Of a DNA stretch of 64,000 bases, positions 11,701 through 63,830 are shown one piece after another. This stretch comes from Bolinopsis microptera. Its lineage: Eukaryota > Ctenophora > Tentaculata > Lobata > Bolinopsidae. The notes beneath the pieces were generated by a model. That model was not told where the DNA came from and searched no databases. It saw only the letters and a program-made list of their open reading frames with translations. Each line of letters starts with the position of its first letter. Position 1 is the stretch's first letter. The translations under genes were made by a program, and so were the position numbers. The stretch covers positions 16,525,919-16,589,918 of the forward strand of contig NC_087076.1 of assembly GCF_026151205.1 (NCBI RefSeq). The letters run 5' to 3'.

Positions 11701-12247
11701 ATTATAAACTGGGTATGCTACAACACTAATATCATGTACAGCGGAAATTTGATACTCCAATTTAATTGACATTCAACAATTTTGGTCTCTTTTTAAAGCG
11801 AGACCTGCATAAAGACGACTTTTTGAATAGGACGCATTTCTAGTGTGACATACTATATATTACGAAGCATATTATACCTTTTCGAGAGAAATCAGCATTA
11901 TATTGAACGGAGAGATTTTGGAGACAATAAAGTTGGATATTAGTGGGGAATTGATAGTGACTGGCCAATAAGCTTCAGCAGCGATATCAAATTACCAACA
12001 CCCCAGCCTATGTAATGATAAAGCTGAGCAATTCTCAATTTTCCACTGGAGTCGGGACAACTATTTACAATGAAAATGGGGTTTTTATCTCCACCATCCA
12101 TGCTCGTCTTACAATACAATACAATGCAAATGGCATATTATCAAATAGCATAACTTATATATAATTACTCAATTTCATCAGTCTTGATTATTGTAAAAAT
12201 GTGAAATATGTCAAAAGATATTTATATATGTCAAAACATATTTATAT
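8704..12247. other. Intergenic, AT-rich, no gene supported
   Basis: I found only short low-complexity ORFs here. One open stretch from 8859 encodes a 45-residue, very basic peptide (KKRR, RRIKK) with no recognisable family, and I do not call it a gene. There is a TATATAAG at about 10490 without a supported gene downstream. A small tandem motif, ATATGTCAAAAGATAT with variants, occurs three times at about 12205-12260, at the edge of the LINE. Confidence 0.5.
9966..10110. repeat. TA-rich microsatellite cluster
   Basis: Runs of alternating TA are interrupted by ATGGTACTGTATAT repeated twice. Short ORFs through it are artefacts of the repeat. Confidence 0.8.
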
Positions 12248-13800
12248 ATGTCAAAAGATATAATCAAAGAAAGTGGAATTAATTGTTCACCTAATGATGT
12301 CTTACCACAAGATCTTGTCAAAGATAATATCACTTCTCTGTTGCATGTATGGGTTGATCTAGTTAACCAATCGCTGTCATCAGGAAGTATGGATGGTGTG
12401 AAACTAGCTGATGTAATTCCGCTAATAAAAGATGATTCTCAGGATCCGAATATATTGAAAAACTACAGGCCAGTCTCAAACCTTACATTCCTGGGAAAAC
12501 TAATTGAAAGAGTAGTTTTAAGAAGACTTAACGAGCACCTTAGTCGGAATAACCTTAATTGTCAGGAACAGTTTGCTTACAAAAAACACCATAGCACTGA
12601 AACACTCTTGATTAAAATAGTGAACGATGTCTTAATAGCAGCAGATGACAAAACTGCTACTGTGGTGATGCTCTTGGACCTGAGTGCTGCCTTTGATACT
12701 GTGGACCATACTTTGTTACTCCGTATCTTGAAGCAAGAAATAGGAATCAGAGGAACTGCTCTTAGCTGGTTCACCAGCTTCCTTAAAGGACGTTGTCAGC
12801 GGACTAGACTCGGCAAATCTGTCTCTGAAACAATAACTATCCGATTTGGAGTACCTCAGGGCTCTGTTTTAGGCCCGGTACTCTTTAACATCTATATCAG
12901 ATCGTTGTACAGATGTGTTAAAGAATCTGGTTTCTCCATTATTGGTTATGCAGATGATCATCAAATCATGAAATCTTTCAAACCCTCTGATCAGGTCAAA
13001 ACCTTAACCAATCAGCTGAGAAACTGCTTCTTGAGGATAAAGAATTGGATGTCACAGTACTACCTGCAACTGAATGATTCTAAAACACAACTCATAGTCT
13101 TTGGACCTAGTAAAGTGCTCAGTGAGATAGAACTTCATGGCGTTGATATAGCTCCTAACACTTTGGTAATGTTTGTGCCTACTGTTAAGAACCTTGGATT
13201 AGTAATGGACAATCAGCTGGTATTTGATAAACAGATCGTAAATCTCAAGAAGAAATGTTTTCATACGTTACGTAATATCAGAAAAATCAGATTTCTACTG
13301 AGTCCCAAACAGATTAAGATCATCGTTAACAGTCTAGTAGTGTCATGTCTAGATTACTGTACAACGGTCTGTACTTTGGTATCGGCGAGAAGCTGCTGCA
13401 TCAGCTCCAGTTACTTCAGAATGCTGCTGCAAAAGCTGTCACTGGTAAATATAAACATGACCATCTTGATGATGACCTGATAAAGCTTCACTGGTTAGAT
13501 GTAAAGAAAAGGATTGTCTTCAAAATCTTATTACTATCTCACAAGTCACTGTTAGGATTGGCACCAATTTATCTGCAGGACATGTTCAAGTATGCTCATC
13601 ATGGTCACTCATTGAAGCTTATTGTTCCTTCTTGTAATTCAAAGTTTGGTGAGCGTAGCTTCTCTGTAGTGGCTCCAAAGATCTACAATCGTCTGCCTGT
13701 TACCATCACCTCTGCTCAATCTCTGGAATGTTTTAAAGCTTTTCTAAAAACTTACCTTTTCAAAATGTCTCCAGATGAACTTGAAAAACTATATCGATAA
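12248..13800 (+). pseudogene. 5'-truncated CR1/L2-type LINE reverse transcriptase
   Basis: The protein carries the core RT motifs: AAFDTVDH, FGVPQGSVLGP and YADDHQ. It lacks the apurinic endonuclease that should precede them, so the copy is 5'-truncated near 12248. The frame breaks close to 13365, where LDYC switches into the frame that continues NGLYFGIGEKL to the stop at 13800. The thumb and C-terminal region (APKIYNRLP) is intact in that second frame. The 3' tail reaches a (TTA)n run at 13992-14010. It resembles the element at 17956-22400 but is a separate, diverged copy. Inactive. Confidence 0.9.
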
Positions 13801-18409: not shown

Positions 18410-21262
18410 TTAATCGCTCATGCCATAACTTTTCTTAAACAGGTGAGTTTTTAATAATGTTTTGAACAGATCAACATTGGAACAAGTCTTAATTTCAATT
18501 GGTAGTTGGTTCCAGATTTTCGGAGCGACAGTCTGAAACGCTCTTGGGTGTGATCTTGTAGATCCGACGGGTAGGTGTAAGGAGGAAGTTCTTCTGCTAC
18601 TCGAACTAACAAATGTTACTAGATCACACAGATATGCAGGAGCAACACCATTGACTGCTTTGAAAATCAGTAAGCATAACTTAAACTCAATCCTCTCCTT
18701 CACCTTGAGCCAATGAAGGGATTTGAGCTTCTCCTCGACTGAGTCTCTCTTCTTTAATCCAAAAACCAGACGGCATGCTCGGTTCTGAATGTTCTGCAGC
18801 TGCGTAATTGAGGCTTGACTACAACCATAGTAAAGTGCATTGCAGTAGTCAAGCGATGAGATTACAATTGCTTGAGTCAGTGTTCCCATCTGTTTGGTTG
18901 TGAGGAATGTTTTCATCTTAGCAAGGTCTCTTAGTTTCAGAAAACACGATGTTTTAAGTTGCTTGATTTGCTCACCAAAGTTTAGTTGAGAGTCGAGACG
19001 AAATCCGAGGTTCTTTGCAACAGGTGACAGCCTGACACACGTCTCAGAGTTAACAAACACGCCCCCTATAGACAGCTGCTGGAGAACAAGCGGTGTCCCA
19101 AAGACAAGAATCTCGGTTTTTCCTGCATTGAGCTGTAGATAATGTTTTTTCATCCAGTCATTAATTTCTTGGAAACATTTGGGAACATCGTTGATAAGGA
19201 CGGTGGGCTCCTCGTTTGGCTTGAAACTTTTATACAGCTGATGATCGTCGGCGTAACCCTGGATGGAGAAGTTCAAATCATGTGCTGCTGAGTACAAAGA
19301 GCGAATGTAGATGTTGAACAGGACCGGACCCAGCACAGAGCCCTGTGGGACTCCAAACTTAATCACTATCTCATAAGATTCCTCATTTCCAACTTTAATC
19401 GTTTGACATCTACCTGTGAGGAAGCTGCTGAACCATTTCCAAGCTGTCCCTGTTATTCCCAACTCATTTCTGAGGATGTTCAGTAGTTTGCAGTGGTCAA
19501 CTGTATCAAAAGCTGCGCTGAGATCTAGGAGAAGAACAACAGTTGCCTTGCTTTCTGTAGATGCAATGAGTAGATCGTTAACAACTCTCACAAGCAGAGT
19601 CTCGGTGCTGTGTTTTGATTTGTATCCAGACTGCTGTGGGATGTTCAGGTTGTTGTTTTCTAGATGTTCATTTAGACGCCTGAGCACTACTCTTTCTATC
19701 AACTTGCCCACAAAACTAAGGTTAGATATTGGTCTGTAATTCTTGAGATTATCACTATCTAATCCCTGGCCCTTGATCAGGGGTGTGATATGAGCTAGTT
19801 TAGCGCCATCAATACTGCCAGAAGATAATGAAGCATTTACTATGTCAACTAAGACGGGTAGTAGAACCTCAAGGTTTTCTTTAAAGATGTTTGCAGGTAG
19901 AGGGTCAATTGAAGAAGACTTGATCTCAGATGCCTTGATTATCTCCTCTAGTTCTTCTAGAGTAGTTGGAGAGAACTCAGCTAGTTTTTCTCCGCAGTAA
20001 GAGGGCGTTTGATCGTCAGACTCCACATGATCAAAGTTATTTCGTATTGCCTTTATTTTCTCCTGAAAATATACGTTAAAGTTTTCGACTGTGACCTTGA
20101 GAGACTCCGACGAAGGCAACACAATGCTTTTATCCCGATCAAGAAAGGTGTCCACAAATCTAAAAAGACTCTTAGAAGAATAGGAATGCTTTATGAATTC
20201 GACTTTGAAAAACTCATGTTTCTTCCTGTCTGAGAGTTCTGTGCACTGCTCTCTGACTGATTCATAGTGTTTCTTGTCAGTTAAAGATCCGGAGATTTTC
20301 CACTTTGTCTCGGCTTTTCTTCTTTGGCTTCTAAGTGCTTTATATTCACCATCGAACCAAGGGGCAGACTTACGTTCTTTGATTTCCTTTGTGAGGAGAG
20401 GAGCATGGTTATTCAGCACAGTTAGGCACTTAGAGTTGTATAGGCTGATGCGGCTTTCAAATGACGGCATTTCAGCTTGTGATAGACCCTCAGGATCCAT
20501 TACAGTAACCAATTCCTCAGCAAGATTATCCGCAAAACAATTTTTGTCAATTTCTTTGACATTTCTGAATGTGATAACTTTTTTCTTGTTGAGATTGCTT
20601 GCAACTGTTTTTGTGAGGCTAAAAGTAACCGGGAAATGGTCACAGTTTGGGAACATTTCCGAGGTGTGCGAGTCTACTGTGACACTCTTTGGATTGACTA
20701 TCTGATGGGAGGAGATTACAACATCCAGAATATGTCCTTTGTTGTGAGTTGGATCTCTCACGTATTGATGCAGTCCATAGCTGGCCAATACTTCAGTCAG
20801 TTTGGCCGTGTTTCTTGATTTATGATCATCCAAATGAATATTAAGATCACCACAGATTAAAAACTTCTTGTATTTCATGAATATGTTCCCAATAAACTCA
20901 TCCAAATCTTCAAAAAATACATCAGTCAATGACCCTGGTCGGTAAACACAAGCACAGAGGACAGTATCACCCGATGAGTCTCGAAATTTGCCTAAAACTG
21001 CTTCAAACGTATCTCCACACTTATCAAACACAGGAGTAAGGTTCAAATCACTTGAATTGTAAATAATTCCAACTCCTCCGCCTCTGCATTTAGCGGAGTC
21101 TTTCCTGATGTAGTGAATCAAGTTATAGCCGTAAGACTTGATGGTAGCAGTAACATCATTCTTCATGCTGGTGAGCCAAGTCTCAGTGACAAAAAGGACA
21201 GAGATTCCTTGGTCGATTATAGATTCCATGATTGGTTGAATCTTATTATTGAGAGATCTCAC
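18410..21262 (-). CDS. LINE ORF2: AP endonuclease and reverse transcriptase
   Basis: 950 codons from the first ATG. The N-terminal 230 residues are an exonuclease/endonuclease/phosphatase-fold domain: VLFVTETWL, GGGVGIIY, ICGDLNIHLDDH and the histidine block NCDHFPVTF. The RT follows, with NYRPISNL, LLDLSAAFDTVDH, FGVPQGSVLGP and the catalytic YADDHQ. The C-terminus carries SLDYCNALYYG and APKIWNQLP, typical of CR1/L2-like elements. The annotated ATG cuts off the first endonuclease strand: the same frame stays open upstream and encodes GCCWNVRSLNNK, but has no ATG before a stop near 21350. Translation therefore probably enters from ORF1 (see the heptamer at 21319-21325). No disabling mutation was seen. 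Confidence 0.92.
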   Translation of the reverse strand: MRSLNNKIQPIMESIIDQGISVLFVTETWLTSMKNDVTATIKSYGYNLIHYIRKDSAKCRGGGVGIIYNSSDLNLTPVFDKCGDTFEAVLGKFRDSSGDTVLCACVYRPGSLTDVFFEDLDEFIGNIFMKYKKFLICGDLNIHLDDHKSRNTAKLTEVLASYGLHQYVRDPTHNKGHILDVVISSHQIVNPKSVTVDSHTSEMFPNCDHFPVTFSLTKTVASNLNKKKVITFRNVKEIDKNCFADNLAEELVTVMDPEGLSQAEMPSFESRISLYNSKCLTVLNNHAPLLTKEIKERKSAPWFDGEYKALRSQRRKAETKWKISGSLTDKKHYESVREQCTELSDRKKHEFFKVEFIKHSYSSKSLFRFVDTFLDRDKSIVLPSSESLKVTVENFNVYFQEKIKAIRNNFDHVESDDQTPSYCGEKLAEFSPTTLEELEEIIKASEIKSSSIDPLPANIFKENLEVLLPVLVDIVNASLSSGSIDGAKLAHITPLIKGQGLDSDNLKNYRPISNLSFVGKLIERVVLRRLNEHLENNNLNIPQQSGYKSKHSTETLLVRVVNDLLIASTESKATVVLLLDLSAAFDTVDHCKLLNILRNELGITGTAWKWFSSFLTGRCQTIKVGNEESYEIVIKFGVPQGSVLGPVLFNIYIRSLYSAAHDLNFSIQGYADDHQLYKSFKPNEEPTVLINDVPKCFQEINDWMKKHYLQLNAGKTEILVFGTPLVLQQLSIGGVFVNSETCVRLSPVAKNLGFRLDSQLNFGEQIKQLKTSCFLKLRDLAKMKTFLTTKQMGTLTQAIVISSLDYCNALYYGCSQASITQLQNIQNRACRLVFGLKKRDSVEEKLKSLHWLKVKERIEFKLCLLIFKAVNGVAPAYLCDLVTFVSSSSRRTSSLHLPVGSTRSHPRAFQTVAPKIWNQLPIEIKTCSNVDLFKTLLKTHLFKKSYGMSD

Positions 21263-21312
21263 ATTCCAGCAACAGCCAAGAATCTCCGCCGGAGAGGATT
21301 TCAGACCACTGC

Positions 21313-22296
21313 TTACAAGTTTTTTGAACTGTAGTAATTGATAGTTTTGCGGAGATGCTGCTGTTCAGCAACATAAGCTGGACATGTCCTATCAAATGCT
21401 GTGTGTGTGTTTCTTTCATCCCGATACTTGCCCTTAGAGCAGTTAATGCAGCATGAAATATGACTATTAGTTTTCTTTTCTGGACAATCTTCTGACGTAT
21501 GATTCTTGGAACAATAACCACAAATAGCTTTTTCTGATTCACACTCCGACCTGTAGTGTCCAAAACCTTGGCAGTTGTTGCATCGTTTTACATGAAATTG
21601 ATCATAAACTTTGCAACTAAACGAACTGATGTATAGCCGATCTCCCTGTTGTTCTATGATTTTCCTGATATTGTTACTAACTCGTATAGTAGCTTGATGC
21701 TTGCTGCTGTTTTTGATCTGAGGTTTAACTTTTAGTACAGAAAATGTTTCACCCTGGGATTTTAATGCCTTAATGTTGGGGTGAGCTTGAAGGAGCAGGT
21801 CTTCTAGATCTTCTTCAGAATAATTATCAGCAAGGTTAGCAACAGAGATTGTGGGCAAACGTTCTGGTGGCTGGTGCGTTATCATTTCTGGAAGTTGCTG
21901 GGATACTTTCTTGACAAGATTTTCCCTGTCAGCTGTTGTCGGACACACAACCACAATGTCCCCTTTCTTATTGACATACCGTTTGTCAGCATGAATGGCG
22001 TTGTCTTTGATGATTTTGTCAACTTCTTCTTGGCGATCTTTTGCTTGATTTTCTGGTGCTTTGCTGGACATGATTAATACAGAGCGATATGAAGGGGCAA
22101 CTGGTGCTGGAGATGGAGGAGAAGAAATTTCAGTTTTGTCCGGAGATGTTTTCATATTCACAACTTTCATAAGTAAACCCTTCATGTCCTCCATAGATTG
22201 GGTCAGATTATCTACTCGCCTGTCAATCAGGTCGACTTTACTTTCGGCACTGACTGCGGAGTTCTGTTCAGAGTGTGTCTTGCAGACATTACACAC
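21313..22296 (-). CDS. LINE ORF1: zinc-knuckle nucleic-acid-binding protein
   Basis: 327 codons. The N-terminal part holds a short cysteine pair (CNVC) and a coiled-coil-like stretch (DLIDRRVDNLTQSMEDMKGL). The middle is a basic domain. The C-terminus has consecutive zinc knuckles: CNNCQGFGHYRSEC (CX2CX4HX4C), CGYCSKNHTSEDC (CX2CX3HX4C) and a third cysteine set near CCINC. Such proteins package the LINE RNA into a particle. The reading frame stays open upstream of this ATG towards 22400 with further cysteines (AVICPRTFF), so the true start may be further 5'. It ends in TTG TAA directly after the slippery heptamer. Confidence 0.85.
   Translation of the reverse strand: MCNVCKTHSEQNSAVSAESKVDLIDRRVDNLTQSMEDMKGLLMKVVNMKTSPDKTEISSPPSPAPVAPSYRSVLIMSSKAPENQAKDRQEEVDKIIKDNAIHADKRYVNKKGDIVVVCPTTADRENLVKKVSQQLPEMITHQPPERLPTISVANLADNYSEEDLEDLLLQAHPNIKALKSQGETFSVLKVKPQIKNSSKHQATIRVSNNIRKIIEQQGDRLYISSFSCKVYDQFHVKRCNNCQGFGHYRSECESEKAICGYCSKNHTSEDCPEKKTNSHISCCINCSKGKYRDERNTHTAFDRTCPAYVAEQQHLRKTINYYSSKNL
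21319..21325 (-). promoter_or_regulatory. Candidate -1 ribosomal frameshift heptamer A AAA AAC
   Basis: On the minus strand the ORF1 codons read TCA AAA AAC TTG TAA. The heptamer A AAA AAC is in the correct register for tandem -1 slippage. Slipping back one base gives AAA AAA CTT GTA AGC, exactly the ORF2 frame, one codon before the ORF1 stop. A small GC-rich stem (TCTCC, loop GGC, GGAGA) lies about 20-25 bases downstream. Function is inferred. Confidence 0.6.
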
Positions 22297-25164: not shown

Positions 25165-25785
25165 CGCCATCTTAGGGTAGCTTTGTTTGAATGTGGAACA
25201 ATTTGGAGAAACTTAATCTAAGTACTAAAAAAACTGCGCGTTTTGCTCTAGAAGCACACTTTTTAGAGATTTTACCAGCGTATCCTCTAAAATCATTTAT
25301 TTGTTCAATTCTAGGGAGGGGCCAAAAGGGGAGGGGTACCACTGAATCTACTCACGTTTTTGTTCTTCTCGTGAGTTTGGTACATCTGTGAGTGCTCTTG
25401 TCACTGTAGCTTGGGGGTGAAGTACCCTTACATCTGTGAATGCCCTGTCCAGCAGCTACCAGAACAATCTCGCGCTGATGTCCAGTCTTGCACCATCTTT
25501 GCCTATTTCGTTTGTACCATTTGGTAATGTGAGTGATGGTGGAACCACGTATTTACCACTCTGCTAGAGTTCCCTCCCACTAAATCGCTCACCCAAATTT
25601 TAAAAAATTCTTATGAAAAGGCCAAGAGGGTGTGAAAGTAATCTAAATCGGTGTATTTTTGGACGCTGATTCCGAATTACCCCCAAGTCGTAGACTAGTC
25701 GTAGACTAAAATCCTGATCGCATGGTACCGTAACACTGGAAAGATAGATAATCACAACTTTCAAAGCAAACCTTACTGACTGGTC

Positions 25786-25926
25786 TTGACCATTGTTAAT
25801 GGTCTGGCCCAGCGCGCGCTACTTCGTAGCACTTGCCGTCGGGCCATAACATTTCGAGAAGAAACATTTCGAGAAGAAAGCGGCGCGCGCTACTTCGAAG
25901 AAATTTAGACGAGTAACATCCGTCAA
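25786..25926 (-). mobile_element. MITE family B, copy 1
   Basis: Ends are TTGAC...GTCAA, with a second copy of the terminal motif inverted (TTGACCATTGTTAAT against TTGACGGATGTTACT). Flanks TGACTGGTC (25777-25785) and TGGCTGGTC (25927-25935) form a 9-bp target duplication with one mismatch. The interior holds CpG-rich GCGCGCGCTACTTCG blocks. Confidence 0.75.
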
Positions 25927-25945
25927 TGGCTGGTCGTGTTATGTG

Positions 25946-26020
25946 TTACTGGGCCGCGCTCAGCCTGTCATTCCGCCGAATCTCTATTTTATGTCTATGA
26001 ACATAATAGCCTGAGGTCCC
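25946..26020 (-). mobile_element. MITE family A, truncated copy
   Basis: Begins TTACTGGGCCGCGCTCAGCC and carries the family core (TGTCATTCCGCCGAATCTC). It stops at GAGGTCCC, where element C begins, so its far end is lost. Confidence 0.75.
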
Positions 26021-26065
26021 TTGTCATACGTTGTATGACCCACCGCGCACGAAGTGCGCGGCTCC

Positions 26066-26258
26066 TTGACGGATGTTACTTTACCTGAGGACCCCAGGCT
26101 ATTATGTTCATTAACATATAATCCGAATAAAGATTTGGCGGAATGACAGGCTGAGCGCGGCCCAGTAAGATGTTACTCGTCTAAATTTCTTCGAAGTAGC
26201 GCGCGCCGAAGTAGCGCGCGCCGCTTTCTTCTCGGGCCATATCATTAACAATGGTCAA
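26066..26258 (+). mobile_element. MITE family B, copy 2, inside element C
   Basis: TTGAC...GTCAA ends, flanked by exact 9-bp CGCGGCTCC (26057-26065 and 26259-26267). It is itself interrupted by a family A copy. Confidence 0.85.
26081..26168 (+). mobile_element. MITE family A inside family B copy 2
   Basis: TTACCTGAGGACC...CGGCCCAGTAA, 88 bp, flanked by an exact 9-bp duplication GATGTTACT (26072-26080 and 26169-26177). Undisrupted family B copies have GATGTTACT once at this point. Confidence 0.9.
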
Positions 26259-26606
26259 CGCGGCTCCCCCACCATAGTGAAACGACCGTGGGGGTCGCAA
26301 CGTGATACAAGTCAGTCGTAAGGCGTAAGCAGCAGATGATCTTAATTCCTATCACACGCGGATCGTATAAAGACATATATCTGATTTGGATAACATTAAC
26401 AAGTTCATATGCTTGAGCCATATATAATGTCACGATGATTCTACCGAAGCATCAAATAACATGTTTACCTTCATTCCTGGACTTACTTCTGGTTCAAGAA
26501 ACTTTATCCACGACGAATACCACTACTGCCTGGATAAGAAGCGCGACGACAAAATCTACGACGACACATGACAGTTGGTGACTGTCCAGTGTCCACGGAC
26601 TGTATC

Positions 26607-26736
26607 TTGACGGATGTTACTTGTCTAAATTTCTTCGAAGTAGCGCGCGCGCCGCTTTCTTCTCGAAATGGCCCGACGGCAAGTGCTACGAAGTAGCGCG
26701 CGCCGGGTCAGACCATTAACAATTAACAATGGTCAA
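26607..26736 (+). mobile_element. MITE family B, copy 3
   Basis: A compact 130-bp copy with TTGAC...GTCAA ends, flanked by an exact 8-bp ACTGTATC (26599-26606 and 26737-26744). It contains two direct copies of GAAGTAGCGCGCGC. Confidence 0.88.
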
Positions 26737-27010: not shown

Positions 27011-27151
27011 AATATTGTACAGTTCACATGTCAATCATTATGTACATCATAGCTGTCTGCTCGACTCGTAGAGTACTGGTACATACTCCGCACTTTTGAT
27101 TTAAATTAACAAGTCAATAGACATTTTCTCGAAGGATAATTAATCAAAATT

Positions 27152-27474
27152 ACTGAATACTGAATACTGAATACTGAATACTGAATACTGAATACTGAAT
27201 ACTGAATACTGAATACTGAATACTGAATACTGAATACTGAATACTGAATACTGAATACTGAATACTGAATACTGAATACTGAATACTGAATACTGAATAC
27301 TGAATACTGAATACTGAATACTGAATACTGAATACTGAATACTGAATACTGAATACTGAATACTGAATACTGAATACTGAATACTGAATACTGAATACTG
27401 AATACTGAATACTGAATACTGAATACTGAATACTGAATACTGAATACTGAATACTGAATACTGAATACTGAATA
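27152..27474. repeat. (CTGAATA)n heptamer satellite, about 46 copies
   Basis: A virtually perfect tandem array of CTGAATA. Three units equal seven codons, so it yields a long stop-free peptide (repeating SIQYSVF on the minus strand). I treat that as a repeat artefact, not a gene. Confidence 0.95.
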
Positions 27475-27709
27475 CATTAATTAAAATTTACTACATATTG
27501 TGCCCGAACACTAAGGCTACAGAAAACAAATACCTATTACATATCCACTCGAAGCGATCTTTGAGTACATTTTTAAAGTTTCTTTAGTCTTAATACCTGA
27601 TCATTAATAAATTAATTTTTTCCACAGTTTGTTTGTTGACAACATTGATTTTGAAAGATTGGCCTGATAATATAACGTGAAATATAATTTTACTCTTTAC
27701 TTTTTGCAG

Positions 27710-42315: not shown

Positions 42316-45300
42316 ATGAACAATGAACATCCGAATTATTTGCGGACTCAATTTCTCAGTGTTGAAACAAGACATGCTAAGGACAACGCTGAGGTTGTAA
42401 TAATTGGAGGAGGATGTGTTGGTACTAGTTTGGCGTATCATCTCGCAAAGTTTGGAGTGAAAAATGTGGTGCTTCTTGAGAAAACTGAACTCACTGCTGG
42501 ATCAACATATAGTGCAGTAAGTATCGTCATCTGTATGAGATTTTGTTGAAACATTCGAGATTTTTGATTTTTTTCTTCAACTATTATTTCGAAGTAATTT
42601 CGGACAAAATCTTGTAGGCTGGTCTGACAACATACTATAATCATGGTATCAACATGCGGAACCTACATTACGAGTCACTTAAGCTTTTCGAAACAATTGA
42701 AGCAGAAACTGATCAGGTAAATCATAAACTATAGATGAAAGAATTTCAAATAAGTTTCACCATCTAAAATTTTTTGGATTTTGAAGTTTTGCTTTTTTAC
42801 TCATTAGAGCTGAATTTATCCCTAAAGTTGACGAAAATGTTAATTTCAGGAAATTGGATTTAACGCCACTGGTTCACTCCGTTTGGCCCATACAAAAGAA
42901 CATTTCAACGAGTTCAAGTAAGAATATTTATTATGTAGCAGTTATAGATACTTCTCTTGCAATCAAATGAATTAAAATTTATAACTTGATATTGATTGTT
43001 GAATTCCGACAATTTGGCTGAAATTCTTATATTATAACCTATGCAGTAATCTTTGACACGATTACAAATGCATCTAATCATCAGATACTGATAATGGTAA
43101 TGATTACCTCTGAACCATCTTTCTGTCCAGATACATGATGAGCCGACATACGTGGCACCGAGCCAACGAGCATCTAGTTGACCCCGACACTATAGAACAG
43201 ATGCATCCTTTTCTGAACATGGAGGGAATTAAAGGGGGGTTATACACCCCTGGTGATGGTCATACCGACCCTTATAGTCTTACTATGGTGGGTTCTATAA
43301 TAGTCATACCTTCTAAAACAACACCATCTAAATCAAATTTTTATTACCTTTAAAAAATTCGCCCTAACTGAAAGGTCTTATAACAACCGTTCATGCAGGC
43401 GTATGCTAAAGGAGCCCGAATGTATGGAGCAACATTAGTGCAAGACTGTATAGTCACTGGCACTAAACAGAGGGCTGACGGAACATGGGAGGTAAGGTTT
43501 TGTTGACCTTTGTTAACCACTCCAATTACTCCAAAATTAATTTAGTGAGTGTTGTTGTGTATCACATCTCTGCTATTTTATGTGCTATTAATGACGACAA
43601 TTTGGACAGGTGGATACACCTTCTGGAAAAATAAACACAAAGCAACTGGTGAACGCTGCCGGATTCCACGCCAGAGAAATCGGGCAGATGTCGGGGCTTA
43701 ATCTACCTCTTGCTCCTGTACACCATCAGTACGTATTGGTTTTCAAATTGAGCTAAAATCTATGACATTAAAGACAAAATGTTATAATTGAATTATAATT
43801 GAATTATAATTGATCAATTATAATTGATGAGTGTGATTGGTAGTTCAAAATTGTAGTATTGCATGTTAGCTTCTCATTGTCCTAATATTAGTGACCAATA
43901 ACACTAATTGGTCACTAATTAATCACACAAATTAACACAAATTATAACAATTAATCAACACCTCAGGTACCTGGTTTCTGCAAGTGTTCCCTTATTGGAA
44001 GACTGGCAGAAGAACCAGAACGGTCGTCAGATTCCAACTATTCGGGATCTTAGAGGTTCTTACTACGTGAGACAGGAACGAACAGGTTGCTAGTCATAAC
44101 TATAAGGACAATATTGTAATGTGTGCTGTTTTAACGGGTGATACTCGTAAAATATTTGTTCCAAATATTAGGACCGTCGACGAGTCCAACTCGGCGCGCG
44201 TCCTGGTAGGTTATAAACCTACAAGTGCTGTTGTGACATTGTTTGATAAATTAAGTCCCCAAGAAGCCTGAAGCTAAAAAAATGAGTTGGTTTTGTATTT
44301 TTGGCTGCAGATAATGCCAACCAGAAATATTATAGCTGTGGTTCACTAAAGACGCTTAATTAAATTCTTGTATTTGTGTTTCTACTGTATTCCATCTACA
44401 ACATTGTGACAACGTTAACAAAACCAGGACTATTGATTGGACCGTACGAGGCACCAGATAAGATGAAGATTCAGGAGGACTGGTATGATAACGGCATCCC
44501 TAGAGGTTTCTCTAAAGAAGCATACGAAAGTGATTTGGATCGTATTGATAGGTGCATAGAACATTGTATGGAACTGATGCCAATAATGCAGGAAACTGAA
44601 ATTCAGGTTAGCAGTTAACTTATTTAGGTTAGGATTTTAGATCCAAGAAATAGAAATTTGACCAAAACCCATAATCATGGGTAGAGTGAACCGCTGCCGG
44701 TGTCTCTCTTTTCCAAACAAAAGGAAATGATATTAATTTGAGGAACCGTCCGCAAATGCAAATTGATACCGAGAATAAAATCGGTCGCTCGCTTTTCCCA
44801 TTCAATAAGCTTTATTACAATTCGTAAGCCGATTTTTTTACAGTAGATTTGGTCAACGTCTAGACGCCCTGTAAAATTTCAGATCTCTAACTCATTTTTA
44901 ACATGGTTTTTAAGGCACCTGAATATGGCGATTTTGGGTTTTTTACCTAATTTCGTATAACATGCTGGCCCGTATTTTGCGCAAATTTCTTAAAAACCTC
45001 CACATAACTATTTCTTATTCCTGTCATCTTTAACATTGAATTAGAATGTTTTGAACTTAAATATACCTGCTGAACTACTTTCGATGAGTCTTAATGCCTG
45101 AAAAACAATAAAGGGGATATAATAGTATAGGGGGTAAATAGTATTGTGAATATAATGGCAACGGTAATGCTTGCCAGCATTGTGATAGACTGTTGTAAAT
45201 AAAACCCTCATTTAATTTCGCTTTTAAGAAATTAAATCTTCCGGTAATATTATACCCAGAATAATTGCTATCGCTAACTTAAGTTCAGAGAAACCTGGAA

Positions 45301-48300
45301 TTTCTAGAAATACTTCCGCAGAACGCGATAGCAGGACCGATTACATACTCTCCCGACATGTTACCGATGATGGGACCAACTCACCACCTAACTAATTACT
45401 GGCTAACAGTCGGATTTGGCTGCTTCGGTATTGTGCATTCTGGAGGTGCTGGAAAATACCTTGCTAGGTCAGTTTTCTCGCTAAATTCCTTGCTACATTA
45501 CCTGCTTTTGGGCAGTTAGGATAGCTTAGCATGTAATTGAATCTCATAATGCAAAATAAAACTGGTAAACATAATATGAATATCTTATGGTACGGCACAA
45601 GCACGTGGTAGTCGAGTGACGTAGTCACGAGACATGCCCCCGTGACACAGCACTCTGCTGCAATGGCCATTCACAAGCGTCTCAGAGTAAAACCGGTTTT
45701 TCTGAATATCTATGTGAGATTAGATTCACAATTCACATCCTTATAGTTCTAGAGAACAGCACGGGTCAAGCATGAAGTATCATTTTAAATGTTTTAAATT
45801 AGAGTAGATCGGAAAGGAACTACTTTCATAAATTTGAACAGGAAATTATCACCAACAATAATTTGAAAATATATTCAAGTTTTATTTATCAAAACTACCT
45901 GGTAAAGCGGATTTAAATAAAGCGCTTTTTTCACTCCTAATAATTAAGGCGACTAATCATTTCTTAAGAACAAGCACCATCGACACACTGTTTTATGCAG
46001 GTGTAACGGAAACTGACATTATTAAGAGGACCAGACACAGGAAGATGTGGACTCACCTATCGGATGGAACCCTGAATAAGTCTCAGTTAGACTTTATTCT
46101 AGTGAGGAAGAAGTGGAGGAACAGTGTCAAAAATACTGAAGTCTACAGCTTCTTTAGTACACTGGGTACTGATCATAGACTTGTTTTGTCTAAGATCAAG
46201 CTATCTCTTCGACGAGCAAAAAAGCAACCCAAGAAAACCTGGTATAATTGGGGAGAACTTAAATCGGATGAAGACCTACAGAAGAGATATGCAGTAGAAG
46301 TCAAGAATCGGTACTCTGCTTTATGCGAGCAAACCGATGAAAGTGAGGTTACGGAACTGTATGGGCATTTTGTTGATGCGATTGCTGATACCAACAAAGC
46401 CATACTGCCTAAGAGAGAAAAGAAGAGACGTGACGATTTCGCGGGTGATCAGCGAGTTCAAAGCGTGCGTACAGCCTTGCAGCAAGCAGAGACTGTCTAT
46501 CACCGAGATCCTAGTGAAGACAGTCGACTGTCTGTTAAGCTACTAAAAACTGAACTGGATCAGGTGTACCAGGACATCTTTGAAGAAGATCTAGTTGCCA
46601 AGGTTAGAAGGGTCGAAATGGCTGCAGACAGATGCAAAAACAAAGAAAGTTGGAATGTCATAAATGAGATAACTGGCAGGAAGGCCAAGGGGGCAACTCA
46701 AATAAGGGGCAACGGAGCCGAAGAAAGGAAGAAAAATTGGCTTGGACATTTCACGAATCTGTTAGGGAGTATACCGGATGTGGAAAACGAGCATCCTAGG
46801 ATCGAGAATCAATTTGAAGGACTCAACATCAGTACAGAACCTTTTACTGTGGATGAGCTTAAAGCTGCTAAACACAGGATAAAAGAAGGTAAAGCACCAG
46901 GTGATGACGGCATACCACCTGAAGTCCTCAAAAGATGCGACCTGGATGACATCGTGCTGTCCTTCTGCAACAAAGCCCTGACAGATGGTATTGCGCCAGA
47001 TCAGTGGAGGATAAGTAACATCATCCCGGTTCCCAAAAAGGGAGACCTGACCAACCCTGGAAACTGGAGGGGGATATCTTTGACTTCTCTCGTAGCTAAG
47101 ACTCTTAATAGAATGGTGCTTAATAGGATCCAGCCGGCTATAGAGGGGGTACTTAGGGACACTCAGAATGGTTTTCGGGAAGGACGGTCCACTACTAGTC
47201 ACATCTTGGCACTCAGAAGGATTCTAGAGGGGGCTAGACAGAGAAATTTACCGGTAGCTATGGTGTTTGTTAATTTTAAGAAGGCCTTTGATTCACTTCA
47301 CCGGGGAATTTTGATGCAAATACTAAAGGCCTATGGAATACCGGACAGTATTGTAGATATCATTAATCTTCTCTATGTCAACACGAAGGGCAAACTTATA
47401 ACACCAGATGGGGATACCGAGCTATTTGATATCCTGGCAGGAGTTCTTCAAGGGGATACATTAGCACCATACTTGTTCATTGTAGCCCTTGACTATTGCA
47501 TGAGACAAGCCTTAAGCAAGCATCCTGAAATAGGATTTACCATTAAGCCTTATCGGAGTAGGAGAGTCAAGGCGGAGAAGATAACAGACACTGGTTTTGC
47601 AGATGACATTGCTCTGATAGCAGATACTGTAAAGGAGGCAGAGATGCTGATGCTAGAGGTAGAAAGAGTTGCTGCTACAGTGGGACTTAAAATGAACGAA
47701 GGGAAAACCAAATTCATTACTCAGAACATCGAGAACCCTGATACCATCAAGTCCCTGGGTAACAACACAATAGAGCACGTGGAAGACTTTACCTATCTTG
47801 GTTCTAGAATCAGAGACAGTGAGAGTGATATCAGGGTTAGGAAAGGAAGAGCATGGGGAGCATGCCACACTCTCAAAAAACTTTGGAAATCTAACCTTAG
47901 AAAGTCTATCAAGACCAGAGTGTTCACAGCACTAGTCGAGTCGGTACTGAACAAACTGATCCTCTGGAAGCCGAGTCATGGGCATACTAACAGGGGGCGA
48001 CCTTACCTAACACTACTAGATAACCTAAATCAGTAGATGAGATAGCTAGACTGATGGAGGACAGAAAGCTGTGGAGAACTGTTGTCAATGGATCTCGGGA
48101 ATACTACCCGCCTTAAGTCAGTCAAGTCAGTCAGACACAGGAGCGTAGTCACGAGACGTAATGGATGAGACATCAAAATAAATGAAAATTCCTGGCACAA
48201 AAAGATCGAATAGGACCGGGTCCTTGCACGCTAATCCTCTCAATCTCACCTCAAAACTCAATTAAAAGATCTGCCAAAAAATGCGTTACTCAATAAGTTG

Positions 48301-51522: not shown

Positions 51523-53259
51523 TGACTCAGAGATATACACAGAAAACTTGTGTCAGGATCTGCAGATGCATATCCTAAATCTAAGTTTTAAATATTTTGA
51601 CCATCGCCATTAAAGAACGAAATCTGGACCCAAATCATTTTAATTATTGACAGGGAGTTTATACATTTTTAAGGTTGTTGAACAATACATATTATTAAAA
51701 TTATACTGTTTTTTAACGATTCGAAAAAGAAATCGCACCGTATTTAACATTTAAACAATTAACCAAAATTCTCGTAACCATTTATCAGTGTCTAATTTCT
51801 CCGACAGTATATCGTCCATATCAAATCTCTGAACGTGTACGTGTATCTAAAAAGATAAAAGCGTGAAGCGTAAGCTAGTGAACTTATTTTTTCTCTTGTA
51901 TCTATATTATAAACTTGACGAAATCTCCCTGGAAACGGTGACCATAAAAATGACCCTCTGGCATGACCAATTTCAGCTTGCAAATAGAGTTGAAAACTGG
52001 TGATTTTTAGCGAGGTTGCAGAAAAAAGAAAAGGAATAGAACACAGCATTTTTAGAATTTTGATTTAGGCTTTAGATTTTTATAATTAGCGTCGAAAGAG
52101 AGGAATAATTAGCGACAGAATAATGGCGTTATTTTAGCAAAAGTTAAGTGCGTCGTTGCGTAGCAACAGCAAGAGATTTTACGGGGACCTCAGGCTATTA
52201 TGTTCATAAATAGAGATTCGGCGGAATGACAGGCTGAGCGCGGCCCAGTAACAAGAGATTGTACGTACATGAGCTTTGAGCAAGCATAGATTAACAACTC
52301 GCGTTTACGTCATAATAATATCGGCATTTGTTCACATACAACCGCACTCCTGGTAGTATTCAAACGACAGGGAGGATCTCAACAGCTGGTGGACGTGACA
52401 CGGATGGGTACATCTACTCCAGAAAGAAGCCTGAAGATACAGCAATCTACTCAGACTCTGCTTGGCGATGCCGGAAGAACAACCCTCCTACCAAGTGTTC
52501 CTGTCATGCCTACCTCATCCTGTCAAATAACTCCGTATCCCTTGGCTCCAGACCTCACAACTTATTGGTGCCCTGCGCCCATTATTGATTATGGAATCCG
52601 TCTAATAAGTTAAGTATTAAATATACAAGAACTGGAAGGAGTTTAACGGACATTCACATCTCGAATAGTAGAAACTCAACACCTTGTTTACTGGGGGAGA
52701 TTGGAAAAACTTTCGCACTCATGTTCATGATTTTAATTCTACAGTTAAATTTGCCGTTAAACTATACAGCTTATACTGTTTACTTCATGATTGGGTCGTA
52801 ATTCAAAATTAAAAGCTAATTTGACAAGAAGTGGGGCCATCGGTGAGGCTCATCTTTTGCCATGCTGTCTTGCGACTGAACAGCATGGCAAAAGGCATAT
52901 GATCTTTATATGAAAGATTCTTGTGTTTAGCTTGTACTAGTAGCCCTAATTTGTAATTGGGTACTTCTTCATCATTCATGCGTTATGATCCCAGCAAACC
53001 TTATAACTTGTTGGCCTTGTTACTAGATCATAGGAGGTATAATTTAAACAGACGGTTGAGCTTGCGCGCGACATTAAGTGATTTGCACGCGTGGCACATT
53101 CCAATTTTCAAGCAGCCAGGCACGTGACAGTGACACAATTAGGCAATTAGACGACAAAAATCTGCACAGTTAAAGTTGTAAACTTTTGATCGCCCCAAAA
53201 TAAGACTTTTCTGGAGATTTTGAAATAACTCAAACATAAAAATTTACAATGTCTCAATA
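51523..53259. other. DMGDH 3' flank and intergenic
   Basis: No further gene supported. Open stretches near 52330-52610 have no recognisable domain. A hairpin with 14-bp arms (TTTTGCCATGCTGT, 52855-52868 and 52880-52893) is present. Confidence 0.5.
52180..52252 (+). mobile_element. MITE family A, clean 73-bp copy
   Basis: TTACGGGGACC...CGGCCCAGTAA flanked by the exact 9-bp duplication CAAGAGATT (52171-52179 and 52253-52261). This copy best defines the element ends. Confidence 0.92.
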
Positions 53260-54106
53260 GTAGAGGCTCTTACGGGCAAAAAGACGTGTTTTCTGCTACG
53301 AGTTTAGAGACCTAACCGCTAATTGGACACAATAGTATGATGTCTAAGGATCGATAATATGTTAAGAAGTATAAATTTGGCCTTATTAGTCACGTGCTAT
53401 ACCAATGCGCGTTTTAAACTTTGACAGTCTATTACTCTAAGGCAAATAGAGTAATTATATTCATATTTTGTCAGCAATAAGATCACATTATTTTCTATTT
53501 AGTGTGAAAATATGAGCTAGAACGGACATAATCTCGCTGAGTTATAGCTGTTTGAAATTTATGATGAACGCGCGGGTGCCAATTGATAACAACTAAATGC
53601 TTTTGCGCGTAGTGCGCGTCGAAAATTTGGCAAAAACGCTTGCGGAGTGAAAATATTCAAACTTCGATAAAGTATATGATGTGGGTACTTCTCGGAAAGG
53701 AAAAATTTAGGCAAACACGATGTGACTATTTTTGGGTTGATTTAATACAACTGCAAAAAATTATTCAAACTTAAAGCAAAAAAGTCAAAATTTTTACCAC
53801 TTTTTTGGATTTTTACCTCAGAACAAATAGAGGGATTTGTTTTATTTTTATACAATCTTGTGCGGCTGTCTTTTAGCTATCTTTATGCAAGTTTTGCCGA
53901 CATGCCAACAAAATTAACTTGCTCAAAATATCAAAAAACATGGTTTTTTGGCCCAAAAATCGGTTTTTTTGCGATTTTACCCCAGAACAATCAGTCCAAT
54001 CATCTTGAAACCACTTTCAATCGATTCTACGGTCAAAAATACGTGTAGTAAGGTGTATCTGGGGTCCCTAACGTATCGAGCAGACAATGCCCGTAAGAGC
54101 CTCTAC
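53260..54106. mobile_element. TA-flanked inverted-repeat element, 847 bp
   Basis: Ends are GTAGAGGCTCTTACGGGCA and its complement, with TA on both outer sides (53258-53259 and 54107-54108), as in Tc1/mariner elements. The interior is AT-rich and non-coding. Confidence 0.8.
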
Positions 54107-54117
54107 TACAAATTTCC

Positions 54118-54363
54118 TTGACGGATGTTACTCGTCTAAATTTCTTCGAAGTAGCGCGCGCCGCTTTCTTCTCGAAATGTTGGCCCGATGGCAAATGCTA
54201 CGAAGTAGCGCGCGCTTGTATCACGTTGCGACCCCCACGGTCGTTTCACTATGGTGGGGTTTATCGTCCTGACGATACAGGGGGAGCCGCGCACTTCGTG
54301 CGCGGCGGGTCATACAACGTATGACAAGCGCGCGCCGCGGGCCAAATCATTAACAATGGTCAA
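54118..54363 (+). mobile_element. MITE family B, copy 4, carrying element C
   Basis: TTGAC...GTCAA ends 11 bp after the preceding element. Flanks AAATTTCC (54110-54117) and AAATTCCC (54364-54371) differ at one base. Split by a family C insertion. Confidence 0.82.
54216..54327 (+). mobile_element. MITE family C inside family B copy 4
   Basis: TTGTATCACGTTGCGACC...CATACAACGTATGACAA, about 112 bp. GCGCGCGC on both sides could be an 8-bp duplication, but it lies in a low-complexity CG run. Confidence 0.75.
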
Positions 54364-60702: not shown

Positions 60703-63117
60703 GTAAAACAACGATTAATTTTATTAATTTATTCAATAGGAAGATAAAAATATACAGATATTGCAGAGTCGGACAAGGGATATTGAAAGTGTTGCTATTG
60801 AACCCTACTGAGGATATTAATGATGATATATTAATATTATATGAAGATAGTACCATCTGTTTTTACGCATGGAAAACTGAAGGAAATCAGTTTTGTACCA
60901 ATCAATGTACTAACTGCAGCTACTAATGCTGGAAATCGCAAGTAAATTTGTACCCTTACAATCACAATTAAATGTAACTGCATTTCTTATCTAAGATCTG
61001 CCGCCATCCTACTCAATATATAAAGATAACACGAAATGTAACAGACTAACAGTGGTGTTATCTAACAATCGATCTGCTGATTATTCTGTCTATTATGCCG
61101 CGCTAGCGCTATTTTATAGTCGCGTATACTTGTTACTATTTGTGATATTTCTCGTTGATAATTATTAATTATCGATGGTGAGTCATTTTGGGTGGCACAT
61201 ATGAAATACAAGGCAATAAAGAGATCACTTGTTTGTTTTGCGGGCCGTCTGCAACAGCTGACACACAATCCAAACACAGATGATTGAGTCTTGTAGTGTA
61301 ATTACAATAATAATTAAAACAACTAATTATAACCCGGAAGTACGTCTAGCACCTTGCTTGCCACTGAGCATCTCATCAGTAATGACTGGTCTGTCAAACA
61401 TTGCGTCAAACATTGAGTACGTGTGAACTGTCGCTTACTGGTCAATTATCGTAATCACATCTTAATTGTCCTGTTCATTGTAATAACTTCTTAATAGCCC
61501 CGTTCATGCCTTACAGTGAGTAATGACGATTTTTTCACATCTCCTGCCGCCTTTTCGCTTTGCTTCGTTGCCCACCGTATTTGCTGTGCTTACGCCTTTC
61601 GGGTCTCGTGAGAATATGTCGGCCGTTTACAGTTTCAAATAGTGCCGTTTTGTCTTGTTTCTAGTTTTAAACTTGTAAAAAAAGCCTCGCTGTCTCTCAC
61701 TGTAAAACTGACTCTCATTAGAGAAGAATGATGAGAGAGACTAATGATGCCAAGCTGAGATTATTAGAACGCTGAGAAATGTAGGGATCACGTAAAAGAA
61801 GCTTTGTAACCCATATCGGTTAAGTTGCAACGCTCTGAGTTGGTTATTGCTGCCTTTATTGACACGTATTGAAGGTTTCAAGTTTGACTGACGAGTATAC
61901 TGACATGAAACGACAAATATTCTCAACTAAATCACAGAACAAGGAACAGGTTAGAGACGAAAGACAATTAAAAAGCAATTTTCTCCTGTAAATTACCATG
62001 AACTCAGGACCTTTTAAATTTTAAACATCGTCGAACAGCTTGCTCGGCTCTTCAAAACATTTTCAACACCTTTCTGTGATGATCTCCTTTCTGTTAAAGG
62101 TTAGCTTGCTACAGATCTCTGCTAACTCACTTTCAGCTCGGTTAATTAATTGAACCTTTAGTTATTTAATTAATGAAATATGTGGTGTCCCGGTCTGGGC
62201 AGGATACCTTATACCACTGGTACAACAGCTGTGCCTGGGTGGAAACCACTGTATTTACTGCGCAAACACAATAGAGCTGCTTGGCTGAAATCACCCGGTA
62301 ATGCTAGGAAATTCGTTAAATTTCCAATTCCTGATCGCTGCAGTACATTTATATCGCTCGGGGAGTGTACGCAACAGATGTAAGTTAATTAATTTGATCT
62401 CGACTAATTGCTCTAGCACGTCAGCTTTTCGTTATTGCTGACGGGAATTGTACAGTAGTCTAGCTTTCACCCTGCTCCACATAATGATCTCCTGTTATGT
62501 AACGTGTGAGAAAACTTGTTTCTTGTACGACAAAATGTCGAGCTTACTATTTCCAGGGTTAAACTCTGAGATAGCTAACGATCATTTACTTGGTTTGGAA
62601 ATTTACCTATCGCGTTTTGTAACTCTGCCAATCCTTGTCGTCGAGAAGATTCCTTGAGCAGACATTCTTAACGTTTGCTTGACAGTTAATTTCGGCTACA
62701 TTTCACGTTTGCTCCCGCTAACTGTCCAATGTATAAGCAAGTAAAGATCTACAAGTTAACATTTGTGGGGAAACAAATCACCAAACCTTATATCGAGCAA
62801 GCAACTGATCGGCATTATAATCTTTAAAGATATAATACTATTTTAAGAAGATATAACATGATTATATGATTATGATGATATGAATAGTTGACACACTGTT
62901 TCGCTTGTAGCCGTGTAGTACTCCAGTCACGTGCCCCACAGCCCCTCTTTCATTGGCCCTCTGATTTGCTGTACATGCTATAAGATCAGCTAGAGCATCA
63001 GATAGTCGACCACCACATTAATACAATAGCGCAGTGGCTATCATGATGTGCGGATAGGTGTGTTGCAGTGTGGTGGGCCTTGCTCTGAGATGTGCTTGCT
63101 GTGTTTGACAAGTTGTG
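60703..63117. other. Probable intron of the SHANK-like gene, no exon seen
   Basis: The exon ending at 60702 has a GTAAAA donor, so at least part of this stretch is intron. I could not identify the next exon (an ankyrin repeat was expected). A 67-codon open stretch at 62180-62383 has no recognisable domain. Confidence 0.45.
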
Positions 63118-63392
63118 TTTAGGGATCCTCTCAGCTTGTTTAGGGGTCCTCTCAGCTTGTTTAGGGGTCCTCTCAGCTTGTTTAGGGATCCTCTCAGCTT
63201 GTTTAGGGATCCTCTCAGCTTGTTTAGGGGTCCTCTCAGCTTGTTTAGGGGTCCTCTCAGCTTGTTTAGGGATCCTCTCAGTTTGTTTAGGAGTCCTCTC
63301 AGCTTGTTTAGGGGTCCTCTCAGCTTGTTTAGGGGTCCTCTCAGCTTGTTTAGGGATCCTCTCAGCTTGTTTAGGGGTCCTCTCAGCTTGTT
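63118..63392. repeat. 21-bp minisatellite, about 13 copies
   Basis: Unit TTAGGGGTCCTCTCAGCTTG plus T, with G/A variation at one site. Because 21 is a multiple of three, two forward frames stay open (repeating ACLGVLS and FRGPLSL). I regard the resulting ORFs as artefacts. Confidence 0.92.
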
Positions 63393-63830
63393 ATGGGGAC
63401 CTCGAAGACGGTTTTTATCGACTTGCCCTTTCTTCGTATCTACTTCACTACTCTATCGAAGGCTTGATTAGTAGACAGTTAGTTTTACTGTTTAAGTGTT
63501 TACGTTCGAACTGTTTCGCAATCAGCCTTGTGAAGTTGGAAGTTGTCAGGGTTCTAATGTAGTGTAACATATCTTTATAATAATTTGTTAATCGTTCAAA
63601 TATAATCGGACTTTAAAAGGCACCTGGAAATTGACCGAACCTGTTGACTGACGACTTATCTGACTGTTGTAACCTCTTTAATGTTTAACAAAACCTCTAA
63701 TCATTTATCGATAGAAATACAAATTATTTACGACACCGGGATTTACCGATATCATCTACTAACCTACTGTAATATTTTTACGTCAATTTGAATTAGTGTT
63801 CAGTCCCGGTCACAAACGATCCCAGAATAT

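Follow-up and report, generated by a model that had tools for sequence, protein, structure and literature searches.

The window, that is, the whole 64,000-nucleotide stretch of Bolinopsis microptera DNA analyzed here, contains genes that include a CSTF1-like gene and non-LTR-type reverse transcriptases, with reverse transcriptase-domain open frames at 12197-13480, 18410-21364 and 45862-48036; one reverse transcriptase open frame is 984 aa long and carries an endonuclease domain. Two tandem repeats are present, one at 27106-27487 that reads YSVFSIQ in two frames of the minus strand, and one at 62998-63562 with several open frames on both strands (on the minus strand, for example, AERTPKQ units). 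A repeat of ~860 bp at 53258-54108 (641-1491 of locus L001) has perfect 20-bp ends, TAGTAGAGGCTCTTACGGGC, and is found in about nine of 90 loci at 92-99% identity; its 3-bp duplications (CAA, TGC, CAG, AAA, ATT and ATA) differ by locus and suggest a PIF/Harbinger- or CACTA-like non-autonomous family.

Nested insertions in the window

Copies of three short repeat families, A, B and C, are stacked at 25786-26310. The stack was checked both by direct reading of the letters and by alignment, and empty sites were rebuilt by deleting an insertion together with one of its two duplication copies and then aligning the rejoined flanks. The outermost element is a family C copy on the minus strand (26021-26310) with both tips intact (TTGTCATAC... 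and ...GTGATACAA). It is interrupted by a plus-strand B copy (26066-26258; tips TTGAC...GTCAA) that is bounded by an exact 9-bp duplication, CGCGGCTCC, at 26057-26065 and 26259-26267, and the flanks rejoined across this B copy match C. The B copy is in turn interrupted by an 88-bp A copy on the plus strand (26081-26168; tips TTACC...AGTAA) with an exact 9-bp duplication of its own, GATGTTACT, at 26072-26080 and 26169-26177; removal of this A copy leaves rejoined flanks with a 100% match to B. The order of insertion is C, then B, then A, and the A copy at 26081-26168 is the youngest insertion in the stack.

The upstream neighbor of the stack is a full-length B match of 141 bp on the minus strand (25786-25926), flanked by a 9-bp duplication with one mismatch (TGACTGGTC at 25777-25785 and TGGCTGGTC at 25927-25935). 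Between it and C lies a minus-strand A copy that abuts C and is truncated at one end (25946-26019; 86% match to A positions 9-87), where it lacks the terminal 8 bases. The C copy does not show a duplication of its own, its left flank, GAGGTCCC, and right flank, GTCAGTCG, being non-matching; for this reason its insertion event is unreadable, and its arrival beside the truncated A is not readable from the flanks. A further B copy lies downstream on the plus strand (26607-26736; 8-bp duplication ACTGTATC).

The reverse nesting occurs elsewhere in the window, where a plus-strand B copy (54118-54363; outer duplication AAATTTCC/AAATTCCC) hosts a 112-bp plus-strand C copy at 54216-54327. Here the rejoined flanks give a match of 97% to B that spans the junction, and the 8-bp duplication, GCGCGCGC, falls in a GC repeat, in which its exact limits are ambiguous. 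The preliminary description of this DNA had proposed A in B with a 9-bp duplication, B in C with another, C in B, and a truncated A and a second B adjoining the stack, all of which the two readings reproduce; its further claim that B and C were mobile over overlapping periods holds from nesting in both directions, and the periods of A and other families overlap with these too. A 94-bp plus-strand element at 44131-44224, with an 8-bp duplication (GTGCTGTT), has the same tip architecture (5 and 7 of 7 pairs in its palindromic tips) and belongs to a fourth family, D.

Genome-wide dispersal and duplications

The genome assembly (264.65 Mb, 232 contigs) was searched with A, B and C, and for each family the best 40-41 scored places of ~1,100-1,400 candidates were retained; recruitment as best matches means that young copies are over-represented. 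Duplications were tallied over 90 loci plus the window, with a few copies counted twice in overlapping loci. On this count 136 of 167 full-length A, B and C copies carry 8-9 bp duplications, exact or with one mismatch. Among 72 A copies, 35 have exact 8-bp and 22 exact 9-bp duplications, and three have 8-bp duplications with one mismatch; the 45 B copies include eight exact 8-bp, 17 exact 9-bp and ten one-mismatch duplications, and the 50 C copies 35, one and five, respectively. Duplication length differs by family, with 8 bp in 40 of 41 for C and 9 bp in 25 of 35 for B (Fisher p ~5e-11).

Six further families, D to I, were found by clustering direct-repeat-flanked segments on their end 8-mers, a procedure that is blind to palindromes. 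Every one starts with TT, stops with AA and has 8-9 bp duplications; across the whole set, 8 bp is almost the only length in C and E and the prevailing one in A and D, and 9 bp prevails in B, F, G, H and I. The 5' ends of F, H and I are similar, as are the 3' ends of F and H, and the nine families are therefore not all independent. The exact 19-base 5' tip of B occurs 1,493 times genome-wide and its reversed control not once, while a detector for palindromic tips with duplications returned 115 matches in the loci and none in reversed sequence. Chance is excluded by this detector control and by the many dispersed copies with discrete ends, matching duplications and unrelated flanks. Most retrieved copies are ~50-140 bp long and non-coding, most have duplications and copy number is high, as in MITEs; with respect to the inverted repeats of MITEs, the match between the ends of an individual element is only partial. 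A to I constitute at least nine MITE families, in line with the mobile, MITE-type families that had been proposed from the window. None of the open-licence papers searched describes such MITEs from a comb jelly, and a search of phage sequence gave no match.

Approximately 38 separate nested events (43 lines, of which five are F/H double calls) were recorded among 264 called copies, a set in which F and H are partly double-called. The combinations are many and include A in B or C, B in A or C, and C in B; a C copy in A is seen through its duplication in loci L058 and L096. The two stacks in one window might suggest that A, B and C occur only together, as one composite repeat, but the varied combinations of nesting and the dispersed single copies with their own duplications and unrelated flanks lead us to reject this reading with near certainty. 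Neither outcome that the preliminary description had named as refuting, a majority of copies without 8-9 bp duplications or a fixed composite arrangement, occurred. Nested copies make up ~15% of the total, and A-I elements cover 13% of the locus flanks. As the rate of nesting is close to the local MITE coverage, a preference for nesting or special targeting is rejected, and random insertion into MITE-dense DNA fits. A-I elements cover 21% of the sequence up to 500 bp from a recruited copy, 9% at greater distances and 2.5% of the window; from the fall away from the copies we conclude that the elements cluster.

Two long candidate elements were rejected as nests of other repeats. The 569-bp candidate (L035 1050-1618) is a C element split by a long fold-back repeat with abundant AACTGCTACAAACTGGCAC units, and an A element is also nested there; the 523-bp candidate (L043 140-662) is a D element that contains a partial E element together with a SINE-like stretch, tRNA-like by eye only.

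A palindromic tip shared by most families

In eight of the nine families the terminal 19 bp have a common layout, in which TT is followed by a 7-base arm, a 3-base spacer and a second 7-base arm, with the axis at base 11. The 18 consensus tips form 89 of 126 possible pairs between bases 3-9 and 13-19 (71%), whereas every other center tested gives 18-36%. When inner halves were exchanged between tips, 44 ± 6 of 126 pairs formed, and 89 was reached in none of 20,000 trials; with similar tips removed, the values are 70 of 105 pairs observed and 33 ± 5 after exchange, again with none in 20,000. The exception is family G, which has its axis at 9.5, 5-bp arms and a 4-base loop, and the tips I3 and C5 are weak palindromes. 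Such a tip would be a plausible binding site for a transposase.

Variable centers in families A and C

The arms of well-kept A and C copies differ from the consensus at only 0.9% of sites, yet no central junction is shared within any of the identical-arm pairs (307 in A and 56 in C). An anchored A pattern has 205 matches genome-wide, and 53 distinct junctions are found among the 100 listed. Of these 100, 54 are simple deletions of a putative two-hairpin parent, whose junction would be the point where the hairpins meet, and the other 46 have insertions of 1-10 nt; the commonest deletion junction (19 matches) lies at a 4-bp AATA microhomology. For C, the corresponding anchored pattern matches 53 times; many of the junctions are distinct and some are shared, and fold-back extensions, GTGAAACGACC for example, are among them. 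Length variation is also seen in F, G, H and I. The junctions of A and C are like copy-specific scars of end joining. Many retrieved B and D copies, those of B having been chosen as best matches to one center, share one dominant junction, which indicates that a move does not always write a new scar.

The variable center might instead be an ordinary mutational hot spot, in which AT-rich slippage or cruciform breakage acts in place after insertion and is unrelated to transposition. The AT-rich centers of A, the variable C runs in centers of C and the hairpins that adjoin the junctions of both would suit such a process, but the centers of C, F, G, H and I are not AT microsatellites, and segmentally duplicated C copies keep identical junctions (L065 and L085, flanks 98.6% identical; L074 and L089, 96%). 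These two segmental duplications hint that the junction does not keep changing in place and that the scar is made at movement, and we regard the hot spot as doubtful.

Candidate transposases

Domain searches of the genome gave at least 88 MULE, at least 150 hAT-dimerization and at least 58 IS1595-type transposase matches. Three MULE loci and three Merlin-type loci, few of all those present, were read; no transposase linked to the families was found among them, nor a TT-palindrome pair with a duplication. Two MULEs, both intact-looking, have readable ends: one of 2,051 bp (L091 993-3043), with an open frame of 482 aa, an 8-bp duplication (GTTATTTG) and tandem subterminal repeats, and one of 2,468 bp (L098 255-2722), with an open frame of 501 aa, an 8-bp duplication (GCATCAGA) and ~170-bp inverted repeats. 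Both have GG... ends. The preliminary description had proposed a search for a transposase ORF flanked by family termini, and in searches with the tips of B and C no larger element was found. Only four matches with another tail stand beside the 1,493 exact B 5' tips, and they were rejected as larger elements, the tails resembling small changes of B; two of 27 matches to the C tip were fetched and were rejected as C variants.

It had also been suggested that all families share one transposase with 8-9 bp duplications, possibly Mutator-like. The range of lengths stands, but a single enzyme common to all families is not supported; the lengths of the duplications differ by family. The Mutator-like part fares unevenly. 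If the families were MULE MITEs moved by the genome's own autonomous Mutator-like elements, the 8-9 bp duplications in all nine would fit the ~8-11 bp expected, and potential sources would be at hand in the MULE domain matches, many with open frames, and in the two readable elements with their 8-bp duplications; Muta1 of Aedes, with duplications of 8 or 9 bp and a palindromic tip, is a precedent (PMC5225508). The readable MULEs nevertheless have GG and long or tandem-repeat ends without the TT-palindrome tip, and the lack of a larger element with a B or C tip in these searches also weighs against this assignment, which we consider tentative and somewhat short of even odds. Less probable still, and in our judgment unlikely, is membership in Merlin (IS1595-type) or in an 8-bp superfamily such as hAT. 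Merlin elements make 8-9 bp duplications, and hAT elements make 8-bp duplications and have CA/TA ends. The lengths seen here fit Merlin, several of the IS1595-type matches are multi-copy intact frames, and hAT-dimerization matches occur as well, with C and E suiting the 8-bp rule; however, B, F, G, H and I depart from that rule, the CA/TA terminal dinucleotide is absent from all nine TT...AA families, and the three Merlin-type loci of ~3 kb are without paired TT-palindrome ends and duplications, although the ends of these elements may lie outside the sequence that was read.

Discussion

We propose that A to I are non-autonomous cut-and-paste MITEs that one transposase, or several related ones, move in trans, and that their center is often a scar of repair, a reading to which we assign a probability of roughly 60%. 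The transposases would make staggered cuts of 8-9 bp and, in most families, act on the 19-bp palindromic tip. When an element leaves, the sister would serve as template for refilling the gap, and copying from each side would stop short; central hairpins may slow this copying, or might instead be a by-product of repair. Closure of the remaining gap by microhomology or end joining would write a new central scar, and gap repair would leave a copy at the donor site. Nesting would need no special targeting. In the literature, internally deleted elements have been explained by abortive gap repair that uses microhomologies (PMC5490172). A more radical version, in which one transposase or a small set reads the folded shape or the dyad symmetry of the tip (TT, 7-3-7) and not its letters, so that unrelated sequences of the right geometry become mobile while rounds of movement rewrite the center by end joining, strikes us as a long shot.

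Several known systems share parts of this pattern. Muta1, a Mutator-like element of Aedes aegypti, shows no sequence preference in its duplications of 8 or 9 bp and carries at its tip a 10-bp imperfect palindrome with two unpaired middle bases, inside a 145-bp TIR with tandem repeats (PMC5225508). The ctenophore families resemble it in their duplications, palindromic terminal motif and non-autonomous derivatives with variable interiors, but they differ in that TT precedes a 7-3-7 palindrome and the inverted repeats are short, and, unlike Muta1, whose transposase is known, they have no linked transposase. The Tm1 Mutator/Foldback elements of Meloidogyne likewise have 8-10 bp duplications, MITE-like members and a reported nested insertion, and differ in their composite TIRs, ~14-bp tandem repeats and predicted 496-aa transposase (PMC3169594). 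Conserved ends and internal breakpoints with microhomology are shared with derivatives of abortive gap repair, such as the aphid mariner MITEs (PMC5490172) and Ds; those derivatives fall into sublineages that share breakpoints, and for most of them a parent can be identified, unlike A and C, in which most retrieved copies have a breakpoint of their own and a parent was not found. The frequent MITE-in-MITE arrangement is similar to that of the MITE multimers of rice. Those multimers belong to other superfamilies, with other duplication lengths, than the families described here. They amount to 11% of rice MITEs, a figure that we take from the citing article (Jiang and Wessler 2001, as cited in PMC10664404).

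MITEs are common, and both the enzyme that moves them and the way in which such tiny elements multiply are often obscure. Nine or more families of mostly unrelated sequence with one tip geometry provide a structural clue for finding the transposase, and the scars in A and C would preserve a natural history of how breaks were repaired in an animal lineage that branched early.
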